Origin: Winogradskyella marina
GTDB taxonomy: Bacteria; Bacteroidota; Bacteroidia; Flavobacteriales; Flavobacteriaceae
Assembly (NCBI RefSeq): GCF_015645385.1
Contig: NZ_JADOET010000003.1
Location: forward strand, 124,001-188,000
Direction: 5' to 3'
DNA length: 64,000 nt
Part shown: piece by piece, positions 27,185 to 58,730 of the stretch
Layout of the letters: the number at the start of each line of letters is the position of its first letter
Position numbering within the stretch: position 1 is the stretch's first letter
Made by a program: the position numbers and the translations under genes
The notes under the pieces: generated by a model
Told to the model about the DNA's origin: nothing
What the model saw: only the letters and a program-made list of their open reading frames with translations
Databases searched by the model: none

Positions 27185-27206
27185 TATAATTCACGTTGTG
27201 AGCAAT
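27185..27206 (+). repeat. 3'-end fragment of the dispersed cassette element (type II-like)
   Basis: TTATAATTCACGTTGTGAGC resembles the 3' end of the type II copy at 27796-27935 (TTATACGAGACCGTTGAGTAC) and, like it, runs into the ATG of the next gene. It marks the left edge of the array. Short, so only tentative. Confidence 0.4.
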
Positions 27207-27788
27207 ATGAGAAAAACGCTATCGATACTTATTTTACTTCTGATTTTATCGTGTGATAAGTCGGAAAACAAAACGATTGACTACGGAGCGTTTGAAATAA
27301 CAGTTCCCAAAAGTTGGTCGGAATATGAAATAAAAGGAATTGACAGCTATGTTAGCGGATTGATAACAGACAAAAACGACACGCTGATTTTTGATTTAGG
27401 TTGGTACTCACCTGATTTGACTAAAAACCCAGAGGTGTTGGTATTTGAGCAATCTGAATATGCAGAATTTAGCGACAAGCAAAAAAAGCAATTAGAAAAT
27501 GTAAAGCATTTAGTTATCGAGGACTTTCTAACCGCTGAATATGACGCAAAAGATTACTTTAAGTACGAATACAAATTGGACAGTATTGACTGCTTTGTAG
27601 CTAAATTTATAAAGCCAAAAAATAAAGGATTTGGAGCAAGCGGAATTTACATTGACAACTTAAAAAACGGTAGACCGAATTCTAACAAAACAAGTTTGAG
27701 TTTTTATGGAAACAATCTATCTGACTCAACGCAAACTGAATTTTTTAAAGCATTAAAAAGCATAAAACTGACTGAATATTGTGAATAA
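27207..27788 (+). CDS. Hypothetical lipoprotein, cassette gene
   Basis: 193 residues from ATG 27207 (MRKTLSILILLLILSCDKSE), a clean lipoprotein signal with Cys at residue 16; the longer start at 27171 would bury the signal and is rejected. Beyond the signal it is a soluble domain with GAFEITVPKSWSEYE, resembling proteins that carry a photosystem-PsbP-like or DUF1795-like fold, but no family is certain. Flanked by cassette-type elements on both sides. Confidence 0.7.
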   Translation: MRKTLSILILLLILSCDKSENKTIDYGAFEITVPKSWSEYEIKGIDSYVSGLITDKNDTLIFDLGWYSPDLTKNPEVLVFEQSEYAEFSDKQKKQLENVKHLVIEDFLTAEYDAKDYFKYEYKLDSIDCFVAKFIKPKNKGFGASGIYIDNLKNGRPNSNKTSLSFYGNNLSDSTQTEFFKALKSIKLTEYCE

Positions 27789-27795
27789 AGTACTG

Positions 27796-27935
27796 CTCAC
27801 AACAATGTATAACCGCAATTACGGCGGATTCGACTACGTCCGAATCCACTCGGAATTGCTAACGTCTGTGCTAAACCGAAAATTAACGCATATTAACCCG
27901 TAACTGACGGTTATACGAGACCGTTGAGTACAATT
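27796..27935 (+). repeat. Dispersed cassette element, type II, near-complete
   Basis: Starts 8 bp after the preceding stop and ends at the next ATG. 5' arm CAAC-AAT-GTATAACC and 3' arm GGTTATAC-GAGACC-GTTG pair as 8 plus 4 bp with a 3-nt and a 6-nt bulge, the same asymmetry as type I copies. The interior contains an imperfect hairpin (GGATTCG/CGAATCC) unlike type I copies but like the copy at 32434. Confidence 0.75.
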
Positions 27936-28523
27936 ATGACGAACAGTATTTTTCATAACGAAGAGTTTGAGATAAACGGAATTTCTGTGCCTGAATTTGA
28001 ATTAAAAAGCGGAAATCTAATCCGAATTTATATTCCGAATTTCAATCTTGAAAACTTACCATTAGGTTTTGACTTAACTATCGAATTGATAAAACGGTTC
28101 CAAAATCAAAAAACTGATTTTCCTTGGGCAAAAAACTACCGACAAAATACTGTTACGGAATTTTTAAACCCTTTGACTGTAAATAAATATCTGATTAATA
28201 AAATGCAGATTGACAAACTTACAGCAAGAAGAATCGCAGAAGAAATCGGAATTAGTTTAAATGAGAAATTTGAATATTTGAGCTTCAAAAACAAAAAAGC
28301 ACTAATCATTAAAGCCTGTTTTGAAAAAAACGATTCTATCCTTTTAGATTATTATGGAGTTGACGCAATGGGAATTGAGTTTTTGGAAAATTTAATTAAT
28401 ACTGAAATAGAAAAAGGTAAATCTGCAATCGCTTTTGACAATTTACAATTTGCGAACGAAAAAGAACCTTATGAAAATATTAAACCGATAAAAATAACTG
28501 TACCCAACACAGTATTAAAATAA
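27936..28523 (+). CDS. Hypothetical protein, cassette gene
   Basis: 195 residues from ATG 27936 (MTNSIFHNEEF), which immediately follows the element; TTG 27924 is also in frame but lies inside the element. A soluble protein with no signal peptide or membrane span. Middle region has KLTARRIAEEIGISLNEKF, helix-turn-helix-like in look but not a recognised family. Codon use is as AT-rich as its neighbours. Confidence 0.65.
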   Translation: MTNSIFHNEEFEINGISVPEFELKSGNLIRIYIPNFNLENLPLGFDLTIELIKRFQNQKTDFPWAKNYRQNTVTEFLNPLTVNKYLINKMQIDKLTARRIAEEIGISLNEKFEYLSFKNKKALIIKACFEKNDSILLDYYGVDAMGIEFLENLINTEIEKGKSAIAFDNLQFANEKEPYENIKPIKITVPNTVLK

Positions 28524-28544
28524 TTGCTATTTTAGGCTTAAACA

Positions 28545-28640
28545 AAGATCGTTGCTCTTTTGTTACGTCTGATTTTATTTCCGAAAATCCTCGCACACAA
28601 AACCGCAACTTTTCTTATACATAAACGTTGGCAAACATTA
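28545..28640 (+). repeat. Dispersed cassette element, 3' half clear
   Basis: 3' arm TTATAC-ATAAAC-GTTGGC at 28615-28632, with the invariant 6-nt bulge, follows an AACCGCAACTTTTC stretch also seen at 51114. The 5' arm between the stop at 28523 and about 28560 is not recognisable. It precedes the Crp/Fnr-type gene by 45-50 bp. Confidence 0.6.
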
Positions 28641-28684
28641 AAACGAACCTCTGTACTAAAGCGTAAAATTTCAGTCAATAAAGA

Positions 28685-29266
28685 ATGAACATTGAAAATA
28701 TCTTAAATAAAATTGGAGAAACATATCATCCTATTACCAATGAATGTCAACAAGAGTTAATTGCGAATTCAAAAATTGTAAGTTATAAAAAGGGTGAGAT
28801 TGTAGTTCGTGAGGGACAATTTTCTAAAAAAGCCTACTTAATTGTAAAAGGTTGTTCAAGAGCATATTATTTAAAAGACGGAAAGGACATTTCTGACTGG
28901 TTCACTTTTGAAAATGAAATAATGGCTGCAATTATCAGTTTTTTCAGCGAAGAGCCAAGTCCTCATTATGTTGAATTTATTGAAGATTCCGTTGTCCTTG
29001 AATTTTCAAAAGATACAGTGGATTGCCTTTCAAAAAAGCACCACGATTTTGAACGTTTTATCAGTAAAGTTGTGACTCAAACTATGTTGGGACTCTGTGA
29101 AAGATTATACACAATTCAGTTCAACAAGGCAGAAGAACGATATAAACACCTTTTAAATATTTATCCAAATATAACCCAAAGAATACCTCTTACGCACATT
29201 GCATCATATTTAGGAATTACACTTGAAACATTAAGCAGAATAAGAAATCCAAAAAAACGAATTTGA
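28685..29266 (+). CDS. Crp/Fnr-family regulator, cassette gene
   Basis: 193 residues: cNMP-binding beta-roll (KKGEIVVREGQFSKKAYLIVKGCSRAYY) and a short C-terminal HTH (IPLTHIASYLGITLETLSRIR). It lacks the N-terminal Cys cluster of the Fnr-like protein at 10809. Such proteins in Bacteroidota usually regulate the next gene. Its stop codon lies inside an 18-bp Fnr/Crp-type palindrome (29261-29278) upstream of the two following genes. Confidence 0.88.
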   Translation: MNIENILNKIGETYHPITNECQQELIANSKIVSYKKGEIVVREGQFSKKAYLIVKGCSRAYYLKDGKDISDWFTFENEIMAAIISFFSEEPSPHYVEFIEDSVVLEFSKDTVDCLSKKHHDFERFISKVVTQTMLGLCERLYTIQFNKAEERYKHLLNIYPNITQRIPLTHIASYLGITLETLSRIRNPKKRI

Positions 29267-29278
29267 TTTATATCAAAT
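29261..29278. promoter_or_regulatory. Crp/Fnr-type palindrome before the oxidoreductase pair
   Basis: ATTTGATTTATATCAAAT has perfect 7-bp arms and contains TTGAT-N4-ATCAA, the textbook Fnr site. Centre 29269.5. AAACTTTG (29299-29306), a near-match to TAnnTTTG, ends 36.5 bp from the centre, the same geometry as the ccoS and hemN promoters. It probably serves the genes at 29322 and 29650 and is bound by the neighbouring regulator or the Fnr-like protein. Confidence 0.72.
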
Positions 29279-29321
29279 GATACATCTTCCATTAAAATAA
29301 ACTTTGTAAAAAAGTTTAAAA

Positions 29322-29645
29322 ATGGAAGAAAACAACAAACAACTAAAGTCAATTTGGGGAAAATGGTGGGAACCTATTAGAAAATGGTTTTATCCTACTT
29401 GGCTTATCTACGAAACCACCGTTCGCTTTTATGACTATTCAGAAGCCATCTATCTTTTTTTTATCGCACAAAATTACTTGGGAGAACTTAGCTCACAAAT
29501 CTTAGCTGTGCTTTGTAGCATTACCACTTTTGCAATTTGTAGCTTCTTTTTGACCGTTCCTGCTACTTTCATACTCTATAAATTCTTCAATACAGAAACT
29601 TTATCAGGAACACAATTTGAATCAAAAATCAAAAAATATCTCTAA
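29322..29645 (+). CDS. Small membrane protein, cassette gene
   Basis: 107 residues with two membrane spans (about 38-58 and 66-88) after a Trp-rich N-terminus (SIWGKWWEPIRKWFYPTW). No family recognised. It ends 4 bp before the NAD(P)H oxidoreductase gene and shares its putative Fnr/Crp-type promoter, suggesting a redox-linked membrane role. Confidence 0.72.
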   Translation: MEENNKQLKSIWGKWWEPIRKWFYPTWLIYETTVRFYDYSEAIYLFFIAQNYLGELSSQILAVLCSITTFAICSFFLTVPATFILYKFFNTETLSGTQFESKIKKYL

Positions 29646-29649
29646 GTAG

Positions 29650-30228
29650 ATGAAGAAAATACTCATTATAAACGGACATCCTGACAAGGAAAGCTTCAGT
29701 TTTGCACTTTCAGAAGCCTATAAAATAGGAGCAAAAAAATCAAATGCTGAAATAAAAGAAATTAATATTCGAGAATTGAATTTCAATCCAAACCTAGAAT
29801 TTGGATATAGAAAACGGACTGAACTAGAACCAGATTTACTAGATGCACAAGATAAATTAAAATGGGCAGACCATATAGTTTGGGTATATCCTATTTGGTG
29901 GAGCTCTGTCCCTGCAATGATGAAAGGCTTTTTAGATCGGATATTACTTCCTGGGTTTGCTTTTAAAAAAAGAGAAAACGCATTGCTTTCGGATAAGTGC
30001 CTAACAGGTAAATCTGCCAGAATAATTTGCACAATGGATCAACCAACTTGGTTTTACAAATTTGTTTATAAAAGCCCTAGCCACAATGCAATGAAAAAAG
30101 GAACATTGCATTATATTGGTGTAAAAAAAGTGCGAATTACAGCCATTGGACCTATACGGCTTTCTACAGAAGAGTTTAGAGCTAAATGGTTGAAAAAAGT
30201 TGAAAAATTAGGGCAACTGAACAAATAG
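29650..30228 (+). CDS. NAD(P)H-dependent oxidoreductase (flavodoxin-like fold)
   Basis: 192 residues: KKILIINGHPDKESFSFAL is the FMN-phosphate loop; ADHIVWVYPIWWSSVPAMMKGFLDR is the conserved active-site segment of the NQO1/MdaB/KefF group. FMN enzyme, probably reducing quinones or aldehydes in the cytoplasm. Last gene of a three-gene cassette with the Crp/Fnr regulator and the small membrane protein. Confidence 0.9.
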   Translation: MKKILIINGHPDKESFSFALSEAYKIGAKKSNAEIKEINIRELNFNPNLEFGYRKRTELEPDLLDAQDKLKWADHIVWVYPIWWSSVPAMMKGFLDRILLPGFAFKKRENALLSDKCLTGKSARIICTMDQPTWFYKFVYKSPSHNAMKKGTLHYIGVKKVRITAIGPIRLSTEEFRAKWLKKVEKLGQLNK

Positions 30229-30264
30229 TAATTTCTGATTTAAACATACGGATAAATAACGTTT

Positions 30265-30401
30265 GCCAACAACGTATAAAATTCATTGCTAGTTATAGCC
30301 TATTTACGAAAGTCCTTATGTACTTTATAGCTGTCATTTATTTTCTTACTTTAGTGTTTAACACATGCAACTAGACATACACAAACACGGTATGTGCAAG
30401 C
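30265..30401 (+). repeat. Dispersed cassette element, type I
   Basis: Begins GCCAAC-AAC-GTATAA (6-nt arm, 3-nt bulge, inner arm), then the type I core ATTCATTGCTAGTTATAGCC and CGAAAGTCC/TACTTTA hairpin; the 3' end (CATACAC-AAACAC) has the 6-nt bulge but its outer arm is altered (GGTATGTGC). It lies 36 bp after the oxidoreductase stop and 37 bp before the next ATG. Confidence 0.8.
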
Positions 30402-30438
30402 AAAAAAACAATCTTGCTTATCCAAAAACAGAATTTAA

Positions 30439-31830
30439 ATGAAATATTTACTTTTATTAATTCCTTTATTTATTGGTTGTTCGGTAACGAAAGAGAAATC
30501 GGAATACCAAAGTCTTTTAGATTATGAAGGCAAATACGAGTATGTTGATAATACGACATTAGAACTTAAAGCTTCGGCGATGGACACCACGCTTTATGCT
30601 GTTATAGATAATGCAAAATATCCTTTAAAATTTATTGCTTTGGATAGTTTTATAGATATGCAAGGAAGTTCTGTAATTTTTGAAAGGGACAACTCAAATA
30701 AAGTAATAAACTATAAGACTGACGGTCATGAATTTAAGTTACTTACAAGAGCTATTGATAAATCGAATATGTTTCCGAGAAAAGAACTTTTCGATAATCC
30801 AGAAAATTACGTGTATAAGCAACCGATAGAAACTGATGATGGACTTTTAACGGGCAATTTGGACGATGAATTTAAAAACCCCAAACTTATAGTCGATATG
30901 GTCAAAGAAACCATTAAAGGTAATTTTCCCGATGTCCATAGCATCTTGATTTATAAAAACAACACATTAGTACTTGAGGAATATTTTTACGGTTATGATG
31001 AAAATACACCACATCAATTAAGGTCTGCCACAAAACCACTCATTGGCGGAATTCTCGGCATAGCGGTTGACCAAGGATTTATAAAAAGCGAAAAAGATGA
31101 ACTATTACCCTATTTTAATTCTAAATATTCAGAAATTACCAATTTAGACAAAAGAAAAAAAGAAATTACAATAGAAAATTTCTTAATGTATCGCCACGGA
31201 ATGGATTGTGAAAACAATAATCCTGCAAGTAAAGGAAATGAATTAAAAATGATGCAAAGTAAAGATTGGGTAAAATACACGCTCAATTTACCAATGATTG
31301 AAGAATCTGGTAAATCATCATCTTATTGTACAGGATGTGCTTTGACTTTAGGCAGTTTAATAGAAATAGCAACAGATAAGAAAATTGAGGATTTTGCAAA
31401 AGAAAATCTTTTTGAACCTTTAAATATTTCAAATTACAAATGGACTTTCGAACCAAATCAAACGAGTAAAGACGATTTTAGTCAAACGTATTTTACATCA
31501 AGAGACTTAATTAAATTAGCAAAATTATTTAAAGATGGTGGTAAATGGAAAGGCAATCAAATAATATCAAAAAGTTGGATTGATAAAACATTTAATATGG
31601 ACAAAGGTGATTACGGTTATCTGTGGGAACATAAATATTTTATAATTAACGGAAAAACATATAACTCATATTTAGCTTCGGGTAATGGCGGACAAAAAAT
31701 CAACATTTGGCCTGAACTCGATATGATTACAGTATTTACAGGTGGAAACTATAATTCTTATCAATTGTATGGTAAAAGTACACCGCCAAACGAAATGATA
31801 CCTAACTATATATTAAAATCCATGAAGTAA
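30439..31830 (+). CDS. Serine hydrolase of the beta-lactamase / penicillin-binding fold, lipoprotein
   Basis: 463 residues; lipoprotein signal LLLLIPLFIGC. The class C beta-lactamase-like domain starts about residue 150: SATK (LRSATKPLIGG) is the SxxK nucleophile motif, SYCTGCALTLGSLIE the second motif, and SGNGGQKINIWPEL the KTG-equivalent region. The N-terminal 140 residues are a separate domain. Probably an esterase or peptidase acting in the periplasm; true beta-lactamase activity is not implied. Cassette gene between two elements. Confidence 0.87.
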   Translation: MKYLLLLIPLFIGCSVTKEKSEYQSLLDYEGKYEYVDNTTLELKASAMDTTLYAVIDNAKYPLKFIALDSFIDMQGSSVIFERDNSNKVINYKTDGHEFKLLTRAIDKSNMFPRKELFDNPENYVYKQPIETDDGLLTGNLDDEFKNPKLIVDMVKETIKGNFPDVHSILIYKNNTLVLEEYFYGYDENTPHQLRSATKPLIGGILGIAVDQGFIKSEKDELLPYFNSKYSEITNLDKRKKEITIENFLMYRHGMDCENNNPASKGNELKMMQSKDWVKYTLNLPMIEESGKSSSYCTGCALTLGSLIEIATDKKIEDFAKENLFEPLNISNYKWTFEPNQTSKDDFSQTYFTSRDLIKLAKLFKDGGKWKGNQIISKSWIDKTFNMDKGDYGYLWEHKYFIINGKTYNSYLASGNGGQKINIWPELDMITVFTGGNYNSYQLYGKSTPPNEMIPNYILKSMK

Positions 31831-31831
31831 A

Positions 31832-31950
31832 GCCTGCAAATAACACCGTATAAAATTAATTGCTAGTTTTAGCTAGCTTACGAAAGTCCTCGCGGTCTTT
31901 CTTAGTCGGTAATTATTTACTAAATAAGTTGTTTGAAACACGATACAAAG
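31832..31950 (+). repeat. Dispersed cassette element, type I, 3' end degraded
   Basis: Starts 1-2 bp after the stop codon. 5' arm AATAAC-ACC-GTATAA, then TTAATTGCTAGTTTTAGC and a GAAAGTCC/GGTCTTTC hairpin whose bases differ from other copies but still pair. The 3' end (GAAACACGATACAAAG) no longer shows the GTTRGC arm and merges into the next start codon. Confidence 0.75.
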
Positions 31951-31953
31951 AAA

Positions 31954-32421
31954 ATGACCCAATCTGAATTTATAATTTTAAATTTTAAAGAAATAAGGAG
32001 AAGAAGTATAAAACTTTGGAATGGACTACCTGAGAAATATTATAATTGGAAACCTGACGAAAAAGCAATGAGTGCGTCAGACATGATAAGACACGTTTTG
32101 GAGGCTGATTATGGATGGAACCTTATTATTAATCAAGGTGATATGACGAATTATAAAACACCTTGGAAAAACCGACCATTCATTAACCTTACTGATGAAC
32201 TTGAATTTGCCGAACCGTATAGAAAAACATTTATAGAACGTGTAAGGCAATTTTCGGATACGGAATTAAACGAAACCGAAATCATTCATCCTGGGAACGG
32301 AGAAAAGAAAATACTTGGAACATATTTATTGCGGATTGGATATCACGAATCAGTTCACGCAGGACAATTTTTGTCGTATTTAAGAGCAATGAAAATTGAA
32401 AGACCAAAAATATGGGATTGA
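31954..32421 (+). CDS. DinB-family protein, cassette gene
   Basis: 155 residues from ATG 31954 (MTQSEFIILNFKEI); a TTG at 31933 is also in frame. Four-helix DinB fold with the three metal-ligand histidines in SDMIRHVLEADYGWN and GYHESVHAGQFLSYLRAM. DinB-like proteins include thiol transferases and uncharacterised metalloenzymes; the substrate cannot be told. Flanked by a type I element before and a type II element after. Confidence 0.85.
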   Translation: MTQSEFIILNFKEIRRRSIKLWNGLPEKYYNWKPDEKAMSASDMIRHVLEADYGWNLIINQGDMTNYKTPWKNRPFINLTDELEFAEPYRKTFIERVRQFSDTELNETEIIHPGNGEKKILGTYLLRIGYHESVHAGQFLSYLRAMKIERPKIWD

Positions 32422-32433
32422 AAAAACATTACA

Positions 32434-32570
32434 GCCAACAATGTATAAGCACAATTCCGCGTGGATTCGGACATAGTCATATCCACGCGGAATTGCTAAA
32501 GCCTGTGATTAACCGAAAAACAGTAACTTTAAACCCGTAACTGACGGATACACGAGACCGCTCTACGTAA
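32434..32570 (+). repeat. Dispersed cassette element, type II
   Basis: Begins GCCAAC-AAT-GTATAAG 12 bp after the stop. The interior has a perfect 14-bp hairpin (32453-32466 with 32481-32494, core CCGCGTGG/CCACGCGG) and then AACCCGTAACTGACGGATACAC-GAGACC as in the copy at 27796. The outer 3' arm is changed to GCTCTAC, and the small gene that follows has no proper start codon. Confidence 0.78.
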
Positions 32571-32797: not shown

Positions 32798-32916
32798 CGT
32801 AGAACAACGTGTGTAATTAATGGCTTGTTTGAGCTTGCTTACAAAAATCCTAACAGATTTTCTGTTTAGTGTTTATTTACTAAACCACACAACTAAACAT
32901 ACATAAACGGAAAAAC
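32798..32916 (+). repeat. Dispersed cassette element, type I
   Basis: 5' arm AGAAC-AAC-GTGTGT, 15 bp after the small gene's stop; core TTAATGGCTTGTTTGAGC, hairpin AAAATCC/AGATTTT, then TTTATTTACTAAACCACACA and 3' arm ACATAC-ATAAAC-GG with the 6-nt bulge. The XRE gene follows 112 bp downstream with its own promoter. Confidence 0.78.
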
Positions 32917-33591: not shown

Positions 33592-33730
33592 CTGGTGGTT
33601 ACATCGTATATAATTTAATGCTGGTTCTAGCCTACTCACAAAATTCTAATGGATTTTCTATCGGTTTTTATTTGCTAAATTAGGTACTTAAGCCACGCAA
33701 CAAACCATATATACAAACACCTTGTACGCA
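33592..33730 (+). repeat. Dispersed cassette element, type I
   Basis: Starts directly after the stop codon: GGTTAC-ATC-GTATAT, core TTTAATGCTGGTTCTAGCC, hairpin AAAATTC/GGATTTT, then TTTATTTGCTAAATTAGG, CACGCAACAAACC and 3' arm ATATAC-AAACAC. The outer 3' arm has drifted (CTTGTACGC). Confidence 0.8.
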
Positions 33731-34492: not shown

Positions 34493-34634
34493 ACGCACAA
34501 CACCGCGTTTAATTAATTTGCTAGAGTCTTCCCTACTCACAAAAATTCCTTCGGAATTTTAACGGGTTCGTAAAAGTTTACTAACTTAGTTGCCTAAACC
34601 ACGCAACTAAACGTACACAGACATTTTGCCTGTA
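34493..34634 (+). repeat. Dispersed cassette element, type I
   Basis: 5' end CACAAC-ACC-GCGTTTAA, core TTAATTTGCTAGAGTC, a perfect AAAATTCC/GGAATTTT hairpin at the position where other copies have different but still pairing bases, then GTTTACTAACTTAGTTGCC, CACGCAACTAAAC and 3' arm GTACAC-AGACAT. Confidence 0.8.
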
Positions 34635-36157: not shown

Positions 36158-36343
36158 ATGAAAAGGTACAAATTTAAAACCTCCAAAAAATTAAAAACAA
36201 TACATCGTAAAATGATAGTAAATTTTGGTGCGGAAAACATAAGATATGAATACGAGCATTATTATTTCGATATTAAAGCTGAAAAAGTAGAAAGTATTCA
36301 AGCACATTTTAAGAAAATTGGATTAGCACTATTAGCCGTTTAA
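36158..36343 (+). CDS. Small basic hypothetical protein
   Basis: 61 residues, Lys-rich N-terminus (KRYKFKTSKKLKTIHRKM) and a C-terminal QAHFKKIGLALLAV. No family recognised. It lies between a 5' arm (36040) and a 3' half (36395) of the dispersed element, so it may have been inserted into, or replaced the middle of, one element. Confidence 0.5.
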   Translation: MKRYKFKTSKKLKTIHRKMIVNFGAENIRYEYEHYYFDIKAEKVESIQAHFKKIGLALLAV

Positions 36344-36394
36344 CTAGAAGTCTCTAAAATAGATGCTGAAAACCACGAAACATAATGCCGAAAT

Positions 36395-36475
36395 TTCATT
36401 AGGTTCGTAAAAGTTTGCTAACTTAGTTGCCTAACCACGTAACTAACCATATACAAGAGCGTTAGCGAACATTAA
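36395..36475 (+). repeat. Dispersed cassette element, 3' half
   Basis: GGTTCGTAAAAGTTTGCTAAC, TTAGTTGCCTAACCACG, TAACTAACC and a full 3' arm ATATAC-AAGAGC-GTTAGC with the 6-nt bulge. The next ATG is at 36486. Confidence 0.75.
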
Positions 36476-38261: not shown

Positions 38262-39803
38262 TTGAACACTATAAAAACAAAAATTAAAGACGTATATGTT
38301 CCATTTTTAATAGTTTCGATAGGAACAATTCTTTTTTACAATATATTTCGTTGGACTTTAGATATCAAACTCGGAATTCTACCCTTAAAGGAAAACCTAT
38401 TGAATTTTTGGATTCCTTTCGCTCTTCCTTGCATTCCAATACTTATTTGGTTACGAAGAAGAATTAGAATTTTAAATGTTAGAGGCAAAACAGATAACGG
38501 CTATTTTGCATATCAATTTGCTATGGCCGTAGCAATCGCTGTGCCATTAATAATAAGTCAACACTACATTGAGAAAAATTCTTTTGACTTAAACGAAATA
38601 CCTTCAATAGCAAAAGTTAAAGAATTAAAAAATGAAAAATATTTTAAAATAAGCTCATTTGATATTGACCATAACTCAAGCCTTCCATATGTAACTGCGA
38701 GAACTTCTGGTCGAAATAATGATAATCTAAACTTTTACTTATATCTCGCCTGTCCTTTTAAGGAAACGAGTTCTATTTGGTATGGAGTTGAGTATAAAAA
38801 GAATTTAAGTAATCGTATTAATGAACAAAGAAAAAAATCAGAATACAGAACTTTTTTAAATACATCAGAACAAGAATTTAAAACATATAATTTTCACGAT
38901 GTAGAATATTTTGAACGACTAGGATATTCAGACGACAGAGATGGATTTATAGAAGCAATACAAAAAAGAAACGCTAATCTAAACGAAAAGGAACAAATAA
39001 TACTTGTACCTAAAAAAGATGTTTTTGAAGAAAGACTTGGTAATTCGTTTTCCTGGATTTTTGGGTCTTTTGGTATCGGAGCACTAGCCCTTTTAGTAAT
39101 GGTAGTAATTCCTAAAATTGACGAAAAGGAATTAAACGATTTTAAGAAAAATAAACCACTAAAAGAAGATCATTTAAAAGATCTGATAAGCCTTTTAAAT
39201 CCAATAGGCGAAAATAAAGCTACAGCAATTTTATTACTTCTAAATATTATTGTATTCCTAATTATGACCTTTAACGGACTTAACATCGTTTCTCCTACAC
39301 CAAGAGAATTACTCGAAATTGGAGGAAATAGACGATTTGAAGTTATGAATGGAGAATATTGGAGATTATTTTCTTCTTTATTTATTCACGGTGGACTCTT
39401 ACACTTGTTTATGAATTTAATCGGACTTGGACTTGGCAGTAGTTTGTTGGAAAAGGCTCTAGGTTCTTTAAAACTTATAATTATCTACATTGGTTGCGGA
39501 ACACTAGCAAGTTTAGCGAGTATTTATTGGCACGAAAATACAGTTAGCGTTGGAGCATCTGGAGCAATTTTTGGACTTTATGGACTGATTTTAGCTTTTA
39601 CCGTTTTCAAGATTTATCCAGATTATATGCGTGGAATGACTTGGATGTTGTTGGGACTTTATGCTGGAGTAAGTCTGCTATTCGGGTTTTTAGGAGGAAT
39701 TGATAATGCAGCTCATTTTGGCGGATTAATAAGTGGATTTGTAATTGGAGGTATTTTAATATTAATAGATAAAGACGAACTGAAAAAAAATCTAAGCTAT
39801 TAA
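38262..39803 (+). CDS. Rhomboid-family intramembrane serine protease with long N-terminal region
   Basis: 513 residues from TTG 38262. The rhomboid core occupies about 315-505: NGEYWRLFSSLFIHGGLLHLFMNL, catalytic Ser in VGASGAIFGLYG and catalytic His in NAAHFGGLISG. The first 310 residues contain two membrane spans, a soluble insert (about 100-250) and another span, an extension not usual for bacterial rhomboids. Predicted to cleave membrane proteins; substrate unknown. Its stop codon is fused to the next element's start. Confidence 0.88.
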   Translation: MNTIKTKIKDVYVPFLIVSIGTILFYNIFRWTLDIKLGILPLKENLLNFWIPFALPCIPILIWLRRRIRILNVRGKTDNGYFAYQFAMAVAIAVPLIISQHYIEKNSFDLNEIPSIAKVKELKNEKYFKISSFDIDHNSSLPYVTARTSGRNNDNLNFYLYLACPFKETSSIWYGVEYKKNLSNRINEQRKKSEYRTFLNTSEQEFKTYNFHDVEYFERLGYSDDRDGFIEAIQKRNANLNEKEQIILVPKKDVFEERLGNSFSWIFGSFGIGALALLVMVVIPKIDEKELNDFKKNKPLKEDHLKDLISLLNPIGENKATAILLLLNIIVFLIMTFNGLNIVSPTPRELLEIGGNRRFEVMNGEYWRLFSSLFIHGGLLHLFMNLIGLGLGSSLLEKALGSLKLIIIYIGCGTLASLASIYWHENTVSVGASGAIFGLYGLILAFTVFKIYPDYMRGMTWMLLGLYAGVSLLFGFLGGIDNAAHFGGLISGFVIGGILILIDKDELKKNLSY

Positions 39804-39955
39804 CGTGTATAGTTCATTGCTAGTGCAAGCCTACCTGCGAATCCCTAGCAATCGGGACGCTGATAGTTTATTCCGATAATAATTTTCTTAATATCAGTTT
39901 AAAAACTACTGAACGCAAGCCTTGTGCTTTTCAATATATAAGACATTGTTTTTCA
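39801..39955 (+). repeat. Dispersed cassette element, 5' half clear, 3' half degraded
   Basis: AAC-GTGTAT-AGTTCATTGCTAGTGC overlaps the rhomboid stop codon, then AGCCTACCTGCGAATCCC. The rest differs from other copies and includes an ATCGGGA segment; ATATAT-AAGACA-TTG near 39934 may be the worn 3' arm. Confidence 0.6.
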
Positions 39956-40198
39956 CAACCTTACAGCTTAACGAACGTTATATAGCATAAAAGGTTTTAA
40001 CTTGGCCTGTGATTTAGGGATTTATACGTACAATTACATCTCGCTATATCAATAAATATAATTAACTTCGTTTCTCATAATTTTTCTGATAAGAAACCTT
40101 TGTTATATCCTGATAAATTTATGGATAGGACTTATGAAAATTATGATATTACGAGTTAGCCGCAAGTTTATAATAACATTCACAACTATTATTTAACC
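39956..40198. other. Intergenic region, no gene seen
   Basis: AT-rich DNA between the element remnant and the decarboxylase. No long frame, terminator or clear TAnnTTTG element; AACCTTTG at 40098-40105 is the nearest -7-like sequence. Confidence 0.5.
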
Positions 40199-41647
40199 AT
40201 GATTAATAAGATTAAAGAGTTAGAGAAATTATCACGTCTTTTAGACCCTAAAGAAAGCATAAGAGAACAATGGAACGCTGAGGTTTTAGAGTATTCCAAT
40301 ACATTCATAAACAACTTAGACACTTCAAAAGCTTTTATTCAGTCTAAAGAAAATGGAAAGGCTATCTATAATTTAGATATTGAAGAGCAAGCAGTTGAAT
40401 TAACCTCATTATTAGATAGTACAACAAAAAATATTGACGGCGTAGGTATAAATCCTGCCTCTGGCGGACACATGGGTTACATTCCTGGTGGTGGACTTTA
40501 CCCTTCTGCGCTTGGAGATTATATGGCAGCCATTAGCAATCGTTATGCTGGAGTATTTTATGCTGCACCAGGAGCCGTTCGTTTAGAAAATATGATTATT
40601 AAATGGATGTGTCGCCTTATGGGTTATCCTACTACTGCCTTTGGGAATTTAACTTCAGGTGGATCCATTGCTAACTTAATGGCCTTAGTAACAGCACGTG
40701 AAGCTTATAACCTTAAAGCTAGAGATTTTGAAAAATCTGTAATTTATCTTACAAAACAAGCACATCATTCTATATTAAAAGCCATCCGAATTTCAGGATT
40801 ATCTGAAGCGCAATTAAGATATATACCTTTAGACAACAACCTAAAGCTTTCCGCAGAACATTTAGAAACGGCCATTATTGAAGACAAAGAAAAGGGGTTG
40901 ATTCCTTTCTATATCAATGCTTCATTTGGTACCACCAATACAGGAACAATTGATCCTCTAGAAGCCATTGCAGAGATCGCTAAAAAACACAAACTATGGT
41001 TTCATGTCGATGGAGCTTATGGTGGTTTCTTTAAATTAGTTAAAAAATTAGATTCAAAATTTAAAGGCATAACAGAAGCGGATTCCATAACTCTAGATCC
41101 GCACAAAACACTTTTTCTTCCTTATGGAACAGGTGCTGTACTCATAAAAGACAAAGAGAATTTATTAAAAGCCTATCACTGTCTAGCGGACTATATGCAA
41201 GATACTGTGGGTAAAGAAGATGAAATTTCACCTGCAGATATATCTGCCGAACAAACAAAGCACTTTCGAGGGATGAGAATGTGGCTGCCATTAAAATTAT
41301 TTGGCTTAAAACCTTTTAGAGCAGCATTAGAAGAAAAACTAAACCTCACAACATATTTTTATGATGAAATACAAAAATTACCTGGGTTTGAAGTAGGCCC
41401 AGAACCAGAACTTTCTGTGGCTATTTTTAGGTACGTTCCTAAAGATGGAGATGCAAACGTATTCAACAGAGAGTTAATTGAAGCCATTCAAACTGATGGA
41501 CGTATATTTCTATCATCTACGAACATAAATAATGTCTTTTGGATACGAATAGCCATTGTTCAATTTAGAACGCATCTTGAACAGATAGATCTTTTACTCG
41601 ATATTATTAAAAAATACATAGATGATACCTCAACTGAATTAAATTAA
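40199..41647 (+). CDS. PLP-dependent group II decarboxylase (aromatic-amino-acid/glutamate type)
   Basis: 482 residues. PLP lysine in SITLDPHKTLFLPYG, cofactor aspartate in FHVDGAYGGFF, and the N-terminal GINPASGGHMGYIPGGG substrate region point to the aromatic-L-amino-acid / tyrosine decarboxylase group. It decarboxylates an amino acid in the cytoplasm; which one cannot be decided. Longer and more conserved than the surrounding cassette genes, yet followed 6 bp after its stop by a complete dispersed element. Confidence 0.9.
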   Translation: MINKIKELEKLSRLLDPKESIREQWNAEVLEYSNTFINNLDTSKAFIQSKENGKAIYNLDIEEQAVELTSLLDSTTKNIDGVGINPASGGHMGYIPGGGLYPSALGDYMAAISNRYAGVFYAAPGAVRLENMIIKWMCRLMGYPTTAFGNLTSGGSIANLMALVTAREAYNLKARDFEKSVIYLTKQAHHSILKAIRISGLSEAQLRYIPLDNNLKLSAEHLETAIIEDKEKGLIPFYINASFGTTNTGTIDPLEAIAEIAKKHKLWFHVDGAYGGFFKLVKKLDSKFKGITEADSITLDPHKTLFLPYGTGAVLIKDKENLLKAYHCLADYMQDTVGKEDEISPADISAEQTKHFRGMRMWLPLKLFGLKPFRAALEEKLNLTTYFYDEIQKLPGFEVGPEPELSVAIFRYVPKDGDANVFNRELIEAIQTDGRIFLSSTNINNVFWIRIAIVQFRTHLEQIDLLLDIIKKYIDDTSTELN

Positions 41648-41653
41648 ACCAGT

Positions 41654-41828
41654 GGCTAACAGTATATATAATTTCTTGCTAATCCTCGCCTACCCTTCGA
41701 CTACGCTCAGGACTGGCTTACGAACCCCGATTTTCTAGTCGGTTTTTACTTAGCTGTTGCGCAAACAAGTGTGCTAAATTGCGGGTTTAAACACGTCACT
41801 AATCATACACAAATACATTGGCTACAAT
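41654..41828 (+). repeat. Dispersed cassette element, type I, long copy
   Basis: 5' arm GGCTAAC-AGT-ATATAT, core TTTCTTGCTAATCCTCGCC, an extra TTCGACTACGCTCAGGACTG segment (a REP-like insert common in flavobacteria), CCCCGATTTTC hairpin, GTTTTTACTTAGC, then 3' arm ATACAC-AAATAC-ATTGGC. It is about 40 bp longer than other copies because of the insert. Confidence 0.78.
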
Positions 41829-42410: not shown

Positions 42411-42793
42411 TGGACGTAGAGCAAAAAATAAAAAAATCAAGGTCGAAAATCTTTAAAGCGGTTTTTCCTAATACAACGAATCATTACGACACCCTTTTCG
42501 GAGGCACAGCAATGCAATTAATGGACGAAACGGCGTTTATAACAGCAACAAGGTTTAGTCGACAACAAATGGTTACTGTTAGTAGTGATAAAATTGACTT
42601 TAAAAAGCCTATTCCTGCAGGAACTATTGTGGAACTCGATGGATATGTTACCCACGTAGGACATACAAGTTTAAAAGTGAGAGTAGATATTTTCGTAGAG
42701 GAAATGTACACCGATTTCCGAGAAAAAGCAGTATCCGGAGAATTTACATTTGTTGCGATTGACGATAATAAGAAACCAGTAAAAATACTATAG
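42410..42793 (+). CDS. Acyl-CoA thioesterase, YciA-like hotdog fold
   Basis: 127 residues with the hotdog acyl-CoA hydrolase signature: TNHYDTLFGGTAMQLMDETAFITA, SSDKIDFKKPIPAGTIVELDGYV and VRVDIFVEEM. It cleaves acyl-CoA in the cytoplasm. Starts inside the stop of the PAS gene (ATGA overlap), and its own stop overlaps the first base of the next element. Confidence 0.88.
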   Translation: MDVEQKIKKSRSKIFKAVFPNTTNHYDTLFGGTAMQLMDETAFITATRFSRQQMVTVSSDKIDFKKPIPAGTIVELDGYVTHVGHTSLKVRVDIFVEEMYTDFREKAVSGEFTFVAIDDNKKPVKIL

Positions 42794-42921
42794 CTAAAAA
42801 CGTATATCAGAAACAGCGATTCCACCTATTAAACAATTAAATTTCAATAAGTTACAAACCCTTATTACATTGAAAATATAGGGCTTAAAATCTGCTGTTT
42901 TTCATATACAAAACAGTGGCC
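42793..42921 (+). repeat. Dispersed cassette element, different interior but intact fold
   Basis: GCTAAA-AAC-GTATAT (42793-42807) and ATATAC-AAAACA-GTGGCC (42904-42921) reproduce the 3-nt and 6-nt bulges. Inside, GAAACAGC-GATT pairs with AATC-T-GCTGTTTTTC, so the inner stem is long. The sequence between is unlike type I or II copies. It begins on the last base of the thioesterase stop codon. Confidence 0.68.
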
Positions 42922-44265: not shown

Positions 44266-44410
44266 TATTGCAAATTTAAGCGTGTATAATTCATTGCTAG
44301 TTATAGTCTACTTCCAAAAATTCTCATGAATTTTCTATACGGTATTTAGCACCTAAATTAGTTGATTCAAACCTGCAAGAGACCATATATAAACATGTTT
44401 GAAACAATTT
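44266..44410 (+). repeat. Dispersed cassette element, type I
   Basis: ATTTA-AGC-GTGTAT, core ATTCATTGCTAGTTATAGTC, hairpin AAAAATTC/GAATTTTC, then GGTATTTAGC, CTAAATTAGTTG and 3' end ATATAT-AAACAT-GTTTGA keeping the 6-nt spacing. It starts 5-10 bp after the DUF3089 stop. Confidence 0.75.
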
Positions 44411-49090: not shown

Positions 49091-49398
49091 ATTTTTAGTT
49101 GTTTTTATATGGAGATAAAAGTACTGAAAATTTAAGGTGAAATAAAACGAGTAATATGTTAAAACCGTGTTATTTTTAAGGTTTTGAGAACCCCTTAAAT
49201 CATAAATTGATTCATACTATATTAATTTCTGAAACGTATTTATTTTATACCAAATAAAATACGTGACTTTACGTATATAGGACCAATTTATTTTAGGTAA
49301 TTTTAAAGCCTAACAAAACATAAAAATTATTGATATCTGGAAAATAGGATGAGATATTATGATGTGCTTTGATTTATATAACACGTTGTATACCATTT
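49091..49398. other. Intergenic region between divergent genes
   Basis: Holds the promoter of the S46 peptidase on the minus strand, which I cannot pinpoint. At the right end TATATAACACGTTGTATACC (49376-49395) resembles the 3' arm of the dispersed element and leads into the ATG at 49399. Confidence 0.45.
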
Positions 49399-49947
49399 AT
49401 GAAAACAATATTTAGAACATTTATTTTAATATTTTTATTCTTTAATCAAATAGGATTTTCACAAGAAAACAAAAAATGGATTAAGGCAACTATATTCACT
49501 AAAACTGACACCATTCAAGGATTTGTTAAAACAAATAGCATTTCTTTTGATAGTGTTAAGTTCAAGAAGAATCTGGATGATCCCACTGAACATCTTACAC
49601 CTGAATTAATTGAAGGATATCAAACCGCAGATTATCTATACCAAAAAAAATTCATTAAAAAAATTGGAAGTTTTGGTTATTATAAATTTGGTAAATTAAT
49701 AGATAAAGGCAAGTTTAATTTATACGAAACTACAGAACAATACTCAAGTTCACAAAACTCTATTCTGATATTAGAATTTAACAATCAGATTATTACTTTC
49801 AAGTTTTATACTTTTCAAAAACTTAAAAACAAGAAAAAAATTGCCAAAGAATTGGATGGTTATCATCTATTGCAAAATATAGTTTTAAAAAGGAAATTTG
49901 ACTATAATAGCTTTATAGAAGAAATTAAAAAACTGAATTCTAAATAA
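49399..49947 (+). CDS. Hypothetical secreted protein, cassette gene
   Basis: 182 residues from ATG 49399 (MKTIFRTFILIFLFFNQIGFSQ), a good signal peptide; the in-frame start at 49369 would displace it. The mature part begins KWIKATIFTKTDTIQGFVKTN, a pattern seen in many uncharacterised flavobacterial exported proteins. No family name can be given. An element follows immediately. Confidence 0.7.
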   Translation: MKTIFRTFILIFLFFNQIGFSQENKKWIKATIFTKTDTIQGFVKTNSISFDSVKFKKNLDDPTEHLTPELIEGYQTADYLYQKKFIKKIGSFGYYKFGKLIDKGKFNLYETTEQYSSSQNSILILEFNNQIITFKFYTFQKLKNKKKIAKELDGYHLLQNIVLKRKFDYNSFIEEIKKLNSK

Positions 49948-49953
49948 AAAAAC

Positions 49954-50093
49954 GGTATACAACACGGTGTCTAATTAATTGCTTTGGTAAGTGCTTATCT
50001 GTAAAATTCCTTCAGAATTTTATCGGGTTCGTATTTGTTTACTAAATTAGTTGCTTAACCACGAGACTAACTATACACAGCAACGTTAGCAAC
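49954..50093 (+). repeat. Dispersed cassette element, type I, complete
   Basis: 5' end TACAAC-ACG-GTGTCTAA, core TTAATTGCTTTGGTAAGTGC, perfect AAAATTC/GAATTTT hairpin, GGTTCGTATTTGTTTAC, TAAATTAGTTGCTTAACC and 3' arm ATACAC-AGCAAC-GTTAGC. Both bulges (3 and 6 nt) are intact. Gene stop is 6 bp before. Confidence 0.85.
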
Positions 50094-51049: not shown

Positions 51050-51071
51050 AAAGGTATAACGCACAAAAACT

Positions 51072-51090
51072 ATTGCTAACAAAGTATATA
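51072..51090 (+). repeat. Dispersed cassette element, 5' arm only
   Basis: GCTAAC-AAA-GTATAT-AA, about 22 bp after the SRPBCC stop, keeps the arm-bulge-arm pattern. The rest is missing; AACCGCAACTTTCC at 51113-51126 recalls the region before the 3' arm at 28604. Confidence 0.6.
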
Positions 51091-53136: not shown

Positions 53137-53162
53137 TAGTTGATTGAAAAACAACTAGATAC

Positions 53163-53178
53163 AACAACATGTATAAAA
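53163..53178 (+). repeat. Possible 5' arm of the dispersed element
   Basis: CAAC-AAC-ATGTAT-AA, 26 bp after the dehalogenase remnant. Outer arm, 3-nt bulge and inner arm are recognisable, but nothing of the core follows. Weak on its own; supported by its position after a gene end. Confidence 0.35.
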
Positions 53179-53221
53179 AATAGCAGTTAAGAACAAAATT
53201 CAAAGTTTGGTTCATTTCTGC

Positions 53222-53229
53222 TATCTTTG
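53222..53229 (+). promoter_or_regulatory. Putative -7 element of the AraC-type regulator
   Basis: TATCTTTG matches TAnnTTTG and is followed by T-rich DNA; the ATG at 53291 is 61 bp downstream. Confidence 0.6.
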
Positions 53230-53290
53230 TTTTTAAACTACTACGTTTCACACACACATTCTCTGCAAACAATAAACATCCGTAAAAATT

Positions 53291-56164: not shown

Positions 56165-56205
56165 TAACACAAATGATAAATAAATTTTTCAAAACAAATA
56201 AAAAC

Positions 56206-56427
56206 ATGGAAAACCAAGAGTTAAAATTCAAAACAAACCTCAATTGTGGAGGTTGTGTTTCAAAAGTTCAGTCTGATTTAGATAACGCAGAGGGTATTTG
56301 CAATTGGAATGTGGACACGGACAATACAGACAAAATCCTTACTGTAAAATCAGAGGGTATTAGTGAAGAAGAAGTCGTTGCTATAATAAAAAGTAAAGGC
56401 TTCAAAGTTGAGGCGTTAAAGAAGTAA
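56206..56427 (+). CDS. HMA-domain copper chaperone (CopZ-like)
   Basis: 73 residues from ATG 56206 (MENQELKFKTNLNCGGCVSKV); the upstream in-frame ATG 56152 would overlap copA and add a Lys-rich leader, less likely. The metal site is LNCGGC rather than the usual MTCxxC. It carries copper to CopA in the cytoplasm. Same strand, 41 bp after copA. Confidence 0.85.
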   Translation: MENQELKFKTNLNCGGCVSKVQSDLDNAEGICNWNVDTDNTDKILTVKSEGISEEEVVAIIKSKGFKVEALKK

Positions 56428-56547
56428 GTCGCTTTTAAATTATTTTAAAAATAAATTTTGCGAATTAAAAAAGCCAGCAGAGACTATTGTGAGTATGCAA
56501 AACCGTTCTCAGTTAAAAACGTTACACAACAAATCATAAGTTTTAGA

Positions 56548-57309
56548 TTAATGTTGTTGTCTAAAAGCAGATGGACTAACACCTATGTGTTTTTTAAAAA
56601 ATCTTGAGAAACTACTAATTGAATCAAACCCTAATATAAAGGCTAATTCTTTAGTTGTTATTTTACTTCTAACAAGTCTTCGTTTGGCTTCTGTTATTTG
56701 TCTCTGCTGTATAATTTGCTTTGCTGTTAGATTCAGTTTTTCTTTTAAAATTTGATTTAAGCGCTTTAAACTAATCCCTATTTCATTGGCATAAAAACTA
56801 GCTTTTGTATTTTCTAAAAAGTGTTTTTCCATTAATTCTAAAAATTGAAAAACTCTTTTTTGATTTAAATCCTGTTTTAAAAAATTATTATTTTGATATC
56901 TAATTAAATGCAACAACAACACTTTCAATAAGGTTTTAAGCATTATATGAGACATTTCATTACTATAAAATTCATTTTTAAGTAATTGAAATACGTTGCT
57001 TATCTGTTTTATTTTTGATGCTTCTGTTATTTCAAATTGCGGATATTTATTAAAAAGCGAAAAGACATCTAAGGCATACTCAATATCATCTTCATCTATA
57101 AGTTCGCGTTCAAAATTTAATAAAATGCCTTTATTATTTGTAAATCCATCCGTATTAAAAACTTCGTTTAATGGTTTAAAATGAACTTTTAAATTACTTT
57201 CTGAATTAAATTCAAAATAAATACCCATAGAATTCGCTGAAAGTAAAGCTGAGTTATTTCGAAAGTTTTCAATGATTTGAAAATTTTTACTAAAATGTTC
57301 TTTATTCAT
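56548..57309 (-). CDS. AraC-family transcriptional regulator
   Basis: 253 residues: N-terminal cupin-like sensor part (1-150) and a C-terminal double HTH (EIGISLKRLNQILKEKLNLTAKQIIQQRQITEAKRRLVRSKITTKELAFILGFDSISSFSRFFKKHIGVSPSAFR). It lies 43 bp downstream of the MFS transporter on the same strand, so they are probably co-transcribed and the regulator may control the transporter. Confidence 0.9.
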   Translation of the reverse strand: MNKEHFSKNFQIIENFRNNSALLSANSMGIYFEFNSESNLKVHFKPLNEVFNTDGFTNNKGILLNFERELIDEDDIEYALDVFSLFNKYPQFEITEASKIKQISNVFQLLKNEFYSNEMSHIMLKTLLKVLLLHLIRYQNNNFLKQDLNQKRVFQFLELMEKHFLENTKASFYANEIGISLKRLNQILKEKLNLTAKQIIQQRQITEAKRRLVRSKITTKELAFILGFDSISSFSRFFKKHIGVSPSAFRQQH

Positions 57310-57352
57310 CTATTTTTAAGGTCTACCTCAAAAATAAGAAGAATTTATTTAG

Positions 57353-58495
57353 TTAGTTTTTCTTTGATTCCTTTTGAAACATAATATAAACACCCACTCC
57401 AATCATTAGCGTTAAGCCAGCTGACATAGCATATATTACGGTATAATTATTTGATACATATTCAATAAATGTAGAGAGAAATTGACCACCAAAAACACCC
57501 ATTGAAAATAACCCCAAATTCTTTCCTTGATTCTGAATTGTACTTGCTTCTAGCATCATATGGTTTAATAACGGTATTGTAAACCCAAATCCTATACCAA
57601 TAAAAATTGCGGTTAACACTAAAAAAAGCACGCTTCCTGATATTGCTAATACTAGATAACCTAGCATAAAAAATAAGAATCCAATAGCAACGGTTTTACC
57701 ATCACCAAATGCTTTTACCATTTTAGGCATCTGACTAGCTGTTATAATTGCTATGACAGAAATAAAAGCCATTAAATAACCTGTTTCAGATTCCGTAAAA
57801 CCGAAAGTTTCAGGTAAGTATAATGGTAAGGTTACAAAACCAACAAAAAATGACATCATAGCTAAAAATGATACTATAAAAATGAGTGTTACTTTTGTAT
57901 TTTTAGGATGGGTTGTTTGCTCAACTTTATTTTCAATAGACTGGTTTTCAGGTTTTGGTAATGATAACGCTACTAAAATTAAACATAGCAAACCAATCAG
58001 ATAGATGTAAAAAGGAAATTGCCAATTTATTTCACCTAAAAGACCTCCAACAGCCAAAAACACCACACCTCCTAACTCTATAGACATGCCCTGCCAAGCA
58101 ATCATTTTCATTCGTGCTTCACCTCTAAAAAACTCTGCTATATAAGCTGTAACGGATACTTGTATTGCAACTGTTGCTGCCCCTAATAATATTCTGTCAG
58201 CAATCAATATATAATCATTAGTTATAAATGCGCCCGCAAAACCTAAAATAGCGTAAGGTATAAGTCCTAAACTCAATAATTTAAGAGTTCCTAATTTATT
58301 AAGTAATCTTCCTATAATAGGCGCAAAAAGCACAACTCCTAAAGAAGGTAATGTAATTAGCCAACTAGGCGAAAACCCTAAATTTTTATGTGCTACAATT
58401 CCAGATAATGAAGGAGCAATAACGGTTCCAACCATAATGGTTAAACTACTAACAAATAGTAATGTAAAAATCCCGAAGTTTGATATTTTTTTCAT
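57353..58495 (-). CDS. MFS transporter
   Basis: 380 residues with about 12 membrane spans. Major facilitator signature around 75-95 (GRLLNKLGTLKLLSLGL) and a central cytoplasmic loop after span 6 (KPENQSIENKVEQTTHPKN). Resembles drug/metabolite efflux carriers of the Bmr/ARO-like group; substrate unknown. The start lies 85 bp from a dispersed element oriented the other way. Confidence 0.9.
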   Translation of the reverse strand: MKKISNFGIFTLLFVSSLTIMVGTVIAPSLSGIVAHKNLGFSPSWLITLPSLGVVLFAPIIGRLLNKLGTLKLLSLGLIPYAILGFAGAFITNDYILIADRILLGAATVAIQVSVTAYIAEFFRGEARMKMIAWQGMSIELGGVVFLAVGGLLGEINWQFPFYIYLIGLLCLILVALSLPKPENQSIENKVEQTTHPKNTKVTLIFIVSFLAMMSFFVGFVTLPLYLPETFGFTESETGYLMAFISVIAIITASQMPKMVKAFGDGKTVAIGFLFFMLGYLVLAISGSVLFLVLTAIFIGIGFGFTIPLLNHMMLEASTIQNQGKNLGLFSMGVFGGQFLSTFIEYVSNNYTVIYAMSAGLTLMIGVGVYIMFQKESKKN

Positions 58496-58579
58496 GCTAC
58501 AAAATTCAAACTAATTTCACCCAATGTGTTTACCGCTTTTCTAATATACTTTGCAAAAATGGAAATTGAGAAAAAGTAA

Positions 58580-58728
58580 TGTCAACAACGAGAATAAGCC
58601 ACTGCTAGTTATAGCCTACTTACGAATCCCGATAGCTATCGAGTCGCGGAAGTTCTACCTGTGATTTATTTGTTAACTTTAGTGCTGAAACTACACAACG
58701 AAATCACACACAAAATCGTTAGCACTTT
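58580..58728 (+). repeat. Dispersed cassette element, rightmost copy
   Basis: 5' arm GTCAAC-AAC-GAGAAT-AA, core GCCACTGCTAGTTATAGCC, a CCCGATAGCTATCGAGTCG palindrome in place of the usual hairpin, TTTATTTGTTAACTTTAGTGC, CTACACAACG and 3' arm ACACAC-AAAATC-GTTAGC. The next ATG is 3 bp after. It has no plus-strand gene on its left, only the MFS start. Confidence 0.75.
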
Positions 58729-58730
58729 AG

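Follow-up and report, generated by a model that had tools for sequence, protein, structure and literature searches.

A 64,000-nucleotide stretch of the Winogradskyella marina draft genome (bases 124001-188000 of contig 32; 3.98 Mb in 78 contigs), hereafter the window, carries on its plus strand a series of attC-like elements between genes, and these elements belong to a gene-cassette system that works like an integron but is not an IntI integron, either by the defining IntI domain or by canonical attC boxes. We are confident that the window is a decaying, integrase-less part of an array. The likely route for its cassettes is insertion at attI-like sites and excision at CG|TT (the bar marks the cassette boundary) by a XerA-like tyrosine recombinase, whose gene is on another contig of the genome and which probably works on the bottom strand in its folded form. 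An initial annotation, made from the letters of the window, had proposed a non-canonical gene-cassette system, and this proposal is supported by complementary arms, CG|TT boundaries, arrays confined to one strand and flanking genes that are adjacent in two relatives. Judged on the open-licence literature, this is likely a second, overlooked gene-capture system, with hundreds of mostly single-gene cassettes arranged head to tail in Winogradskyella and its relatives, each closed by a site with a predicted hairpin fold.

We built a covariance model from an alignment of nine full window copies and one copy adjoining an integrase. Within the window, 14 matches to the model reached E <= 0.05 (nine model members and five new), every one of them on the plus strand, and a fifteenth match at 27798 was obtained in a smaller search (E 0.039). 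Window elements mostly begin directly 3' of a stop codon, confirming the initial annotation's account of real, plus-strand elements behind stop codons. A genome-wide search, which that annotation had suggested, revealed 77 matches at E <= 1 (150 candidates scored of 4824), with matches on the same strand in every contig and no contig hit on both. Matches crowd contig 1 between base 126394 and its end, occur about every kilobase on the small contigs 18, 20, 23, 24, 25 and 27, and lie at one end of contig 60; the contig breaks are probably assembly breaks inside one long array.

A detector based on architecture only (arm, 3 nt, inner arm ... inner arm, 6 nt, arm) was also run on 39 loci totaling 695,890 bases, with the array strand of each locus preset from the integrase or model hits before the run. 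This detector, which discards any site lacking a perfect inner arm or some further stem, identified 291 sites on the array strand, compared with 5 on the opposite strand and 6 when the sequence of these loci was reversed, and the architecture as originally described therefore recurs far above chance. Several details of that description fared less well: the example GCTAAC-AAC-GTGTAT has no exact occurrence in the window, the loose 3'-end pattern shows no excess (79 in the window versus 71.9 in shuffles), and the outer box reads GTTR followed by cassette-specific letters rather than GTTRGC. Overall, GTTR was found in 287/291 sites, while the canonical core boxes are rare (GTTRRRY in 15/291 and RYYYAAC in 15/290). 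The central hairpin of the element shows paired changes. Window copies are decayed beyond the reach of most of the tests below, with a single site retaining a perfect inner arm according to the detector. Two window elements (27798-27928 and 32434-32566) are of a second body type; these are 80% alike over 80 nt and combine an unrelated middle with the same end architecture.

In integrons, a cassette has a complete attC site only as a free circle, in which its end joins its own start. The 5' arm of a site in an array should therefore complement the start of the same cassette, located behind the previous site. Among consecutive pairs from the detector, perfect 6-nt complementarity was found within the same cassette in 219/244 cases versus 43/244 within a site, and within-locus shuffles yielded 54.6 (243 of the pairs). 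Model hits on the intact-array contigs gave 25/32 same-cassette and 5/32 within-site matches, with a maximum of 12 over 20,000 shuffles; one of the seven exceptions is explained by a diverged site at L016:11974 that the model missed and whose inclusion restores the chain. In another Winogradskyella genome (G005), the corresponding counts were 68/68 and 16/68. The match spans 14 positions, with agreement of 92-94% for positions 4 to 9, 68% for 10 and 82-91% for 12 to 14, and is interrupted by a constant mismatch of C against A at position 11 (1.2% matching), while within-site matching over the same positions is about the level expected from composition. The two complementary ends flank the gene and are separated by hundreds of bases. 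In 13 pairs of diverged homologous cassettes, the ends revealed 8 paired double changes, 2 single changes and 1 double but unpaired change, with 119 unchanged. Of the fold first proposed for the element ends, the architecture stands and the pairing of outer arms inside one site does not, because the partner is the start of the same cassette.

The 244 cassettes measure 433-3117 bp (mean, 1064), and their longest open reading frame (ORF) lies on the array strand in 229, on the opposite strand in 10 and is absent at a threshold of 50 aa in 5. We found 32 homologous pairs among them, although nine of these are neighbors sharing just a flank. In the seven pairs that were inspected, boundaries run from CG|TT to CG|TT: full identity starts at the C before GTT and drops to 3/7 inside the left 6-nt spacer and, on the right, to 1/7 over the first five bases of the following cassette. 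Three of the seven are duplicates in G005 arrays (98-99% identical), and one is shared at 97.8% identity by G033 and G005, which are different species. The 6-nt spacer travels with its own site, with mutual information of 1.14 bits to its own 3-nt spacer (shuffled maximum, 0.52) versus 0.55 bits to the next 3-nt spacer (shuffled maximum, 0.555). Together, the limits of identity and the spacer linkage place the crossover after the spacer and before the fourth base of GTTR; from the sequences of the seven pairs, we infer that it probably occurs at G|TT, with the boundary within CGTT. Among the genes of the intact array, inspection by eye suggested a ParE-type toxin and a set of XRE and methyltransferase genes (L016:12408-12731 and 14760-17828).

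The description of the system as integrase-less holds for the window, where Pfam scans of 30 ORFs revealed no integrase, but a recombinase candidate exists on another contig. At an array end on contig 1, as the initial annotation had envisaged, a tyrosine recombinase of 405 aa (G000:C1:124757-125971) precedes the first site and is immediately followed by an attI-like site, behind which intact cassettes form an array. Residues R241, K266, H330, R333, H356 and Y365, which we take to be catalytic, are invariant in 17 aligned relatives. The nearest solved relatives by sequence and fold are the archaeal XerA proteins 4a8e and 5hxy (219 and 213 bits, versus 195 bits for IntI4), and the best NCBIfam match is the XerA model NF040815, at 219.1 bits for a cut-off of 220. 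Relatives of the integrase fall on both sides of this cut-off (above, L132 at 226.9, L111 at 220.8 and L102 at 228.6; below, L107 at 196.2 and L143 at 194.8), and some carry the NCBI name 'site-specific tyrosine recombinase/integron integrase', which is the description of the NCBI XerA model. Residues 1-100 (L016:9758-10057) form an N-terminal domain with no Pfam match and a predicted alpha/beta fold, which is absent from the best integrase matches (about 280-305 aa) of some array-bearing genomes. Two Flavobacteriaceae genomes (G162 and G257) each have seven integrase-profile matches among those listed, several with identical or nearly identical scores.

Downstream of the integrase stop codon is a short leader whose last bases are TATATAACNNG|TT or a variant specific to the clade, and the attI-like site lies 27-42 nt after the stop in matching Winogradskyella loci, followed by different cassettes. 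Eight near relatives have TATATTTG and TATATAAC in common and are variable past GTT; as 12 of the attI columns were set by the pattern that aligned the eight loci, this claim rests on the free columns and the raw listing of leaders. In the loci L094 and L096, an identical leader is followed by a first cassette that differs between the two. Conservation of the leader up to G|TT, combined with differing cassettes, points to an attI-like site beside the integrase. We also compared the start of the first cassette with the downstream arm in 36 integrase loci: 14 matched at 13/13 positions and five at 12/13, while 13 scored lower or were unscored owing to a weak partner and four end at a contig end, giving 32 scorable loci. 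Shuffled first-cassette starts reached 12 in 3/320 trials and never 13. Loci matching at 13 of 13 include those of Zunongwangia mangrovi, Algoriphagus ornithinivorans, Seonamhaeicola aphaedonensis and W. ursingii. Leader sequence varies with integrase clade; a second integrase clade (L092, L093, L094, L096, L110, L114 and L132), approximately 35-38% identical, has a palindromic attI leader (for example, GGATATA...TATATCC).

The attI core pattern occurs three times in the own genome (beside the integrase, at 49375-49388 of the window and on contig 43), compared with once in the reversed control, and three cassette starts in the window (27195, 40155 and 49385) follow attI-like sequence, not a site. 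A promoter-like platform without an integrase is repeated at several places, consisting of a terminator, a palindrome near TACGTAACTTTACGTA, a TTG-N19-TAnnTTTG-like promoter and TATATAACNNG|TT; copies were observed at L065:4640-4893, at the end of contig 60 (L062, several), at 40054-40157 and 49250-49390 of the window and at approximately 200-370 of L232. The TAnnTTTG box in attI corresponds to a Bacteroidetes promoter motif and would drive the first cassettes. Repetition of the platform may let a single integrase load several loci.

Sites and integrases are linked beyond this genome. Across 29 Winogradskyella integrase loci (flanks of up to 1.5 kb), we identified 19 sites in 15 loci, all 19 of which were downstream of and parallel to the integrase. 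A further set of 80 named loci, which contain many unrelated recombinases, yielded 37 sites in 10 loci, all from Bacteroidota, with 35/37 downstream and parallel. Using a second covariance model, made from one genome, we detected sites in 59/60 Winogradskyella genomes and in 34/247 genomes across the phylum; site counts in both sets are lower bounds, with at most 57 and 13 candidates scored per genome, respectively. The most serious competing explanation, which we nonetheless consider unlikely, is that the cassettes are real but are moved by another recombinase of the cell, such as the host XerC/XerD, with the 405-aa protein as a passenger. The genome does contain seven tyrosine recombinase matches, and some arrays have no adjoining integrase, but in many genomes the 405-aa protein is found directly before the attI-like site and parallel to the arrays, and the leader sequence tracks the integrase clade.

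An ordinary IntI integron with diverged parts is less likely still, in our estimate. Such a system would share the attI, cassette and G|TT crossover logic, and the 405-aa integrase does match the IntI model TIGR02249, but it does so in two pieces and at 199 bits, below the cut-off of 265; five array-linked relatives scored 188-216 bits, compared with 430 and 437 for two real IntI controls. Residues 182-246 of IntI4 have no counterpart in the 405-aa integrase, which thus lacks the IntI-specific domain, and only 58 residues lie between two motifs that are separated by 100 in the two real IntI. An additional domain around patch III is given as a defining IntI feature in PMC9668308. We also built a tree of 64 rows from the last 330 residues of each protein (63 of the 80 named loci plus the own protein; 10 loci never entered and 7 were dropped as short or broken), in which the two IntI stand apart (100/99) from a 48-row group (support, 93/83) containing all 13 array-linked rows as well as rows from other phyla; the array-linked label for L101 and L104 is based on leader or arm, not model hits. 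The rarity of GTTRRRY among the sites argues in the same direction.

The stem positions that fail to pair are strongly biased between strands. Over the ten positions beyond the inner arm, which is itself perfect through the selection of sites, top-strand clashes are A.C rather than G.T by 587 to 9; in the outer 14 positions the ratio is 266 to 28, and the first spacer position is A.C in 288/291. Because top-strand clashes are A.C, only the bottom strand can form wobble pairs (G.T). We predicted the folding of random samples of 120 and 60 out of 243 sites, and in the circle form of the site the bottom strand was more stable in 117/120 (mean, -27.4 versus -22.9 kcal/mol), since A.C clashes become G.T wobbles. 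On the top strand, the circle form was predicted to be more stable than the integrated form in 112/120, whereas a circle given the start of another cassette showed no gain over the integrated form (-18.76 versus -18.75). With 20 dinucleotide shuffles for each of 60 sites, mean z-scores were -5.65 (bottom) and -4.01 (top) for the circle and -3.29 (bottom) and -2.78 (top) for the integrated form.

Neither of the alternatives raised in the initial annotation, a miniature inverted-repeat transposable element (MITE) or a terminator, is supported by these results. A self-spreading repeat resembling a MITE or a repetitive extragenic palindrome would explain the many near-identical copies, some alone on their contig, but is scarcely credible when none of the contigs with the 77 matches is hit on both strands, the gene is part of the moving unit and the arms are cassette-specific and match across the gene. 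The position behind stop codons and the paired changes in the central hairpin could suggest a 3'-untranslated region or terminator-like RNA element, which we dismiss as hardly tenable, as a comparison of the window with Rfam gave no match, folding favors the antisense (bottom) strand in 117/120 and the arm complementarity spans whole genes.

These observations suggest a mechanism in which the 405-aa integrase, assigned by linkage, would be the catalyst and the free cassette would take the form of a circle. The folded bottom strand of this circle, as modeled, would be the substrate of the integrase, as it is for IntI1, which acts on a folded bottom strand according to PMC2117344. Strand identity would be encoded in wobble pairs, and the 14-nt ends may be maintained by selection for the fold or may be a trace of cassette-making.

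The window array is bounded by a conserved left flank gene on the plus strand (26213..27007, in 37/60 genus genomes) and a conserved right flank gene on the minus strand (60104..62326, in 31/60), and all platforms, cassettes and sites listed here between them are on the plus strand. The first attI-like platform (27060..27195), which has no integrase, has a leader ending in TTATAATTCACG|TT with the junction G at 27195 and provides the best start (12/13) for the arm of the site at 27798. The cassette behind it (27196..27923) contains a gene at 27207-27788, where the start codon at 27207 is our reading and the listed ORF begins at 27171, and is followed by an attC-like site of the second body type (27798..27928; model match and architecture). 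Next are a site at 28503..28632 (model match), whose arm agrees at 12/13 with the cassette start at 27923, and a cassette at 28628..30389 with cyclic nucleotide-binding (cNMP-binding), 107-aa and flavodoxin-like genes, whose start matches the arm at 13/13, with its site at 30265..30394 (model match). Model matches then continue at 31839..31972 (3' end decayed) and at 32800..32916, 33597..33726 and 34496..34630 (all decayed), together with the second site of the alternative body type (32434..32566), for which there is no matching upstream cassette start (9/13), and with a 3' half at 36343..36466 (model E 0.003) and a 5' half at 39796..39928 (model E 0.047).

The second platform (40054..40157, junction G at 40155) has 71% identity to an attI-like repeat of contig 60 (E 2e-7). 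Its cassette (40156..41817) carries a pyridoxal phosphate (PLP)-dependent decarboxylase gene at 40199-41647, with a start that agrees with the arm at 11/13, which is not above the shuffled maximum. Sites matching the model follow at 41655..41822, 42793..42920 (decayed) and 44273..44402 (ends decayed). A 660-aa protein encoded at 44808-46790 has a Por secretion tail, and a 570-bp unit is repeated three times in tandem in its gene (87-88% alike). The third platform (49355..49385), ending in TTTATATAACACG|TT, is one of the three exact attI-core matches in the genome and precedes a cassette (49386..50085) whose start matches its arm at 13/13. After its site (49958..50090; model match), the next cassette starts at 50086 and matches at 12/13 the arm at 51075, which belongs to the 5' arm of one more site (GCTAACAAAGTATAT, 51070..51090). 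A weak site at 53160..53267 (model E 0.0003) and the final site of the stretch at 58581..58723 (model match) complete the series. Overall, among 16 window arms, those at 27798, 28503, 30265, 49958 and 51075 match an upstream start at 12 or 13 of 13 positions, compared with a maximum of 11 in both shuffled (128 trials) and reversed controls; the arm of site 32434, one of the 16, was 3 nt out of register and has a corrected score of 9.

The flank genes of the window array are 33.1 kb apart in the own genome, and in ten relatives with both flanks on one contig and in the same arrangement they are 0.15, 0.43, 1.0, 1.4, 2.5, 3.0, 5.3, 7.8, 10.2 and 16.2 kb apart. They are immediate neighbors in G010 and G050; a single convincing site is present at this locus in G007 and a doubtful one in G040, and G005 has several sites together with an attI-like TTATATAACGAG|TT at the same place as the first platform but with a different cassette behind it. 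Flank spacing and site content therefore indicate that the locus has no content in some species and varying content in others, including genes that lack a site.

Several observations weigh against our interpretation of the window and of the integrase. In decayed clusters including the window, a 6-nt same-cassette match was found in just 1/14 cases (window, 1/6) versus 0/14 within sites; only 5/16 window arms reach 12-13 of 13, and a complemented control reaches 12 once. Seven of the ten filled or empty versions of the locus, including the two shortest, have no site, and some hold other genes. Two sites at L133 are oriented opposite to the integrase. By hand tally, a strong integrase match is also present in 52/213 phylum genomes without model hits, while 12/34 phylum genomes with model hits have no integrase match at E <= 1e-80. 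This loose linkage across the phylum is partly explained by the model having been made from one genome.

Compared with classical integrons (class 1 and Vibrio chromosomal), the system shares a tyrosine recombinase, an adjoining attI, a one-strand cassette array, an attC-like imperfect palindrome after each gene, a G|TT crossover and a predicted better fold of the bottom strand. It differs in that the integrase lacks the IntI-specific domain and is parallel to the array, the R box is GTTR plus cassette-specific letters instead of GTTRRRY, the spacers are 3 and 6 nt, the cassettes have 14-nt ends and strand identity is conveyed by A.C/G.T positions. Like a cluster of attC sites lacking an integron integrase (CALIN), the window is a site cluster without an integrase on 64 kb (14 model matches) but, unlike a CALIN, its sites are not canonical attC and it has attI-like platforms of its own at 27195, 40155 and 49385. 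XerA functions in chromosome resolution; relative to archaeal XerA/Xer (4a8e and 5hxy; NF040815), the present integrase has an extra N-terminal domain of approximately 100 residues and is linked to cassette arrays. The phylum is listed among integron carriers in PMC8618304 and PMC9668308. IntegronFinder 2.0 (PMC9024848) reports one complete integron within Bacteroidetes proper, that of Salinibacter ruber M1; it was found by IntI and attC models and is set beside the present system by its description only, the shared feature being an integron in Bacteroidetes.

On balance, we lean toward viewing these arrays as a second integron superfamily in Bacteroidota, with XerA-derived integrases that lack the IntI domain, co-evolving 14-nt cassette ends and an A.C/G.T strand code by which only the bottom strand of the circle forms one long hairpin, and with the same integrase serving integrase-less attI platforms (up to three in the window). 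If so, cassette arrays would be common in a marine genus of Bacteroidota, and were probably overlooked because search models seek IntI and canonical attC. The system would represent a second, comparable solution to structure-guided cassette recombination and a natural test of the purpose of the IntI domain. To our knowledge, the origin of cassettes is an open question, on which the 14-nt ends would provide a handle. The arrays would further represent a large, additional pool of mobile genes in marine bacteria.

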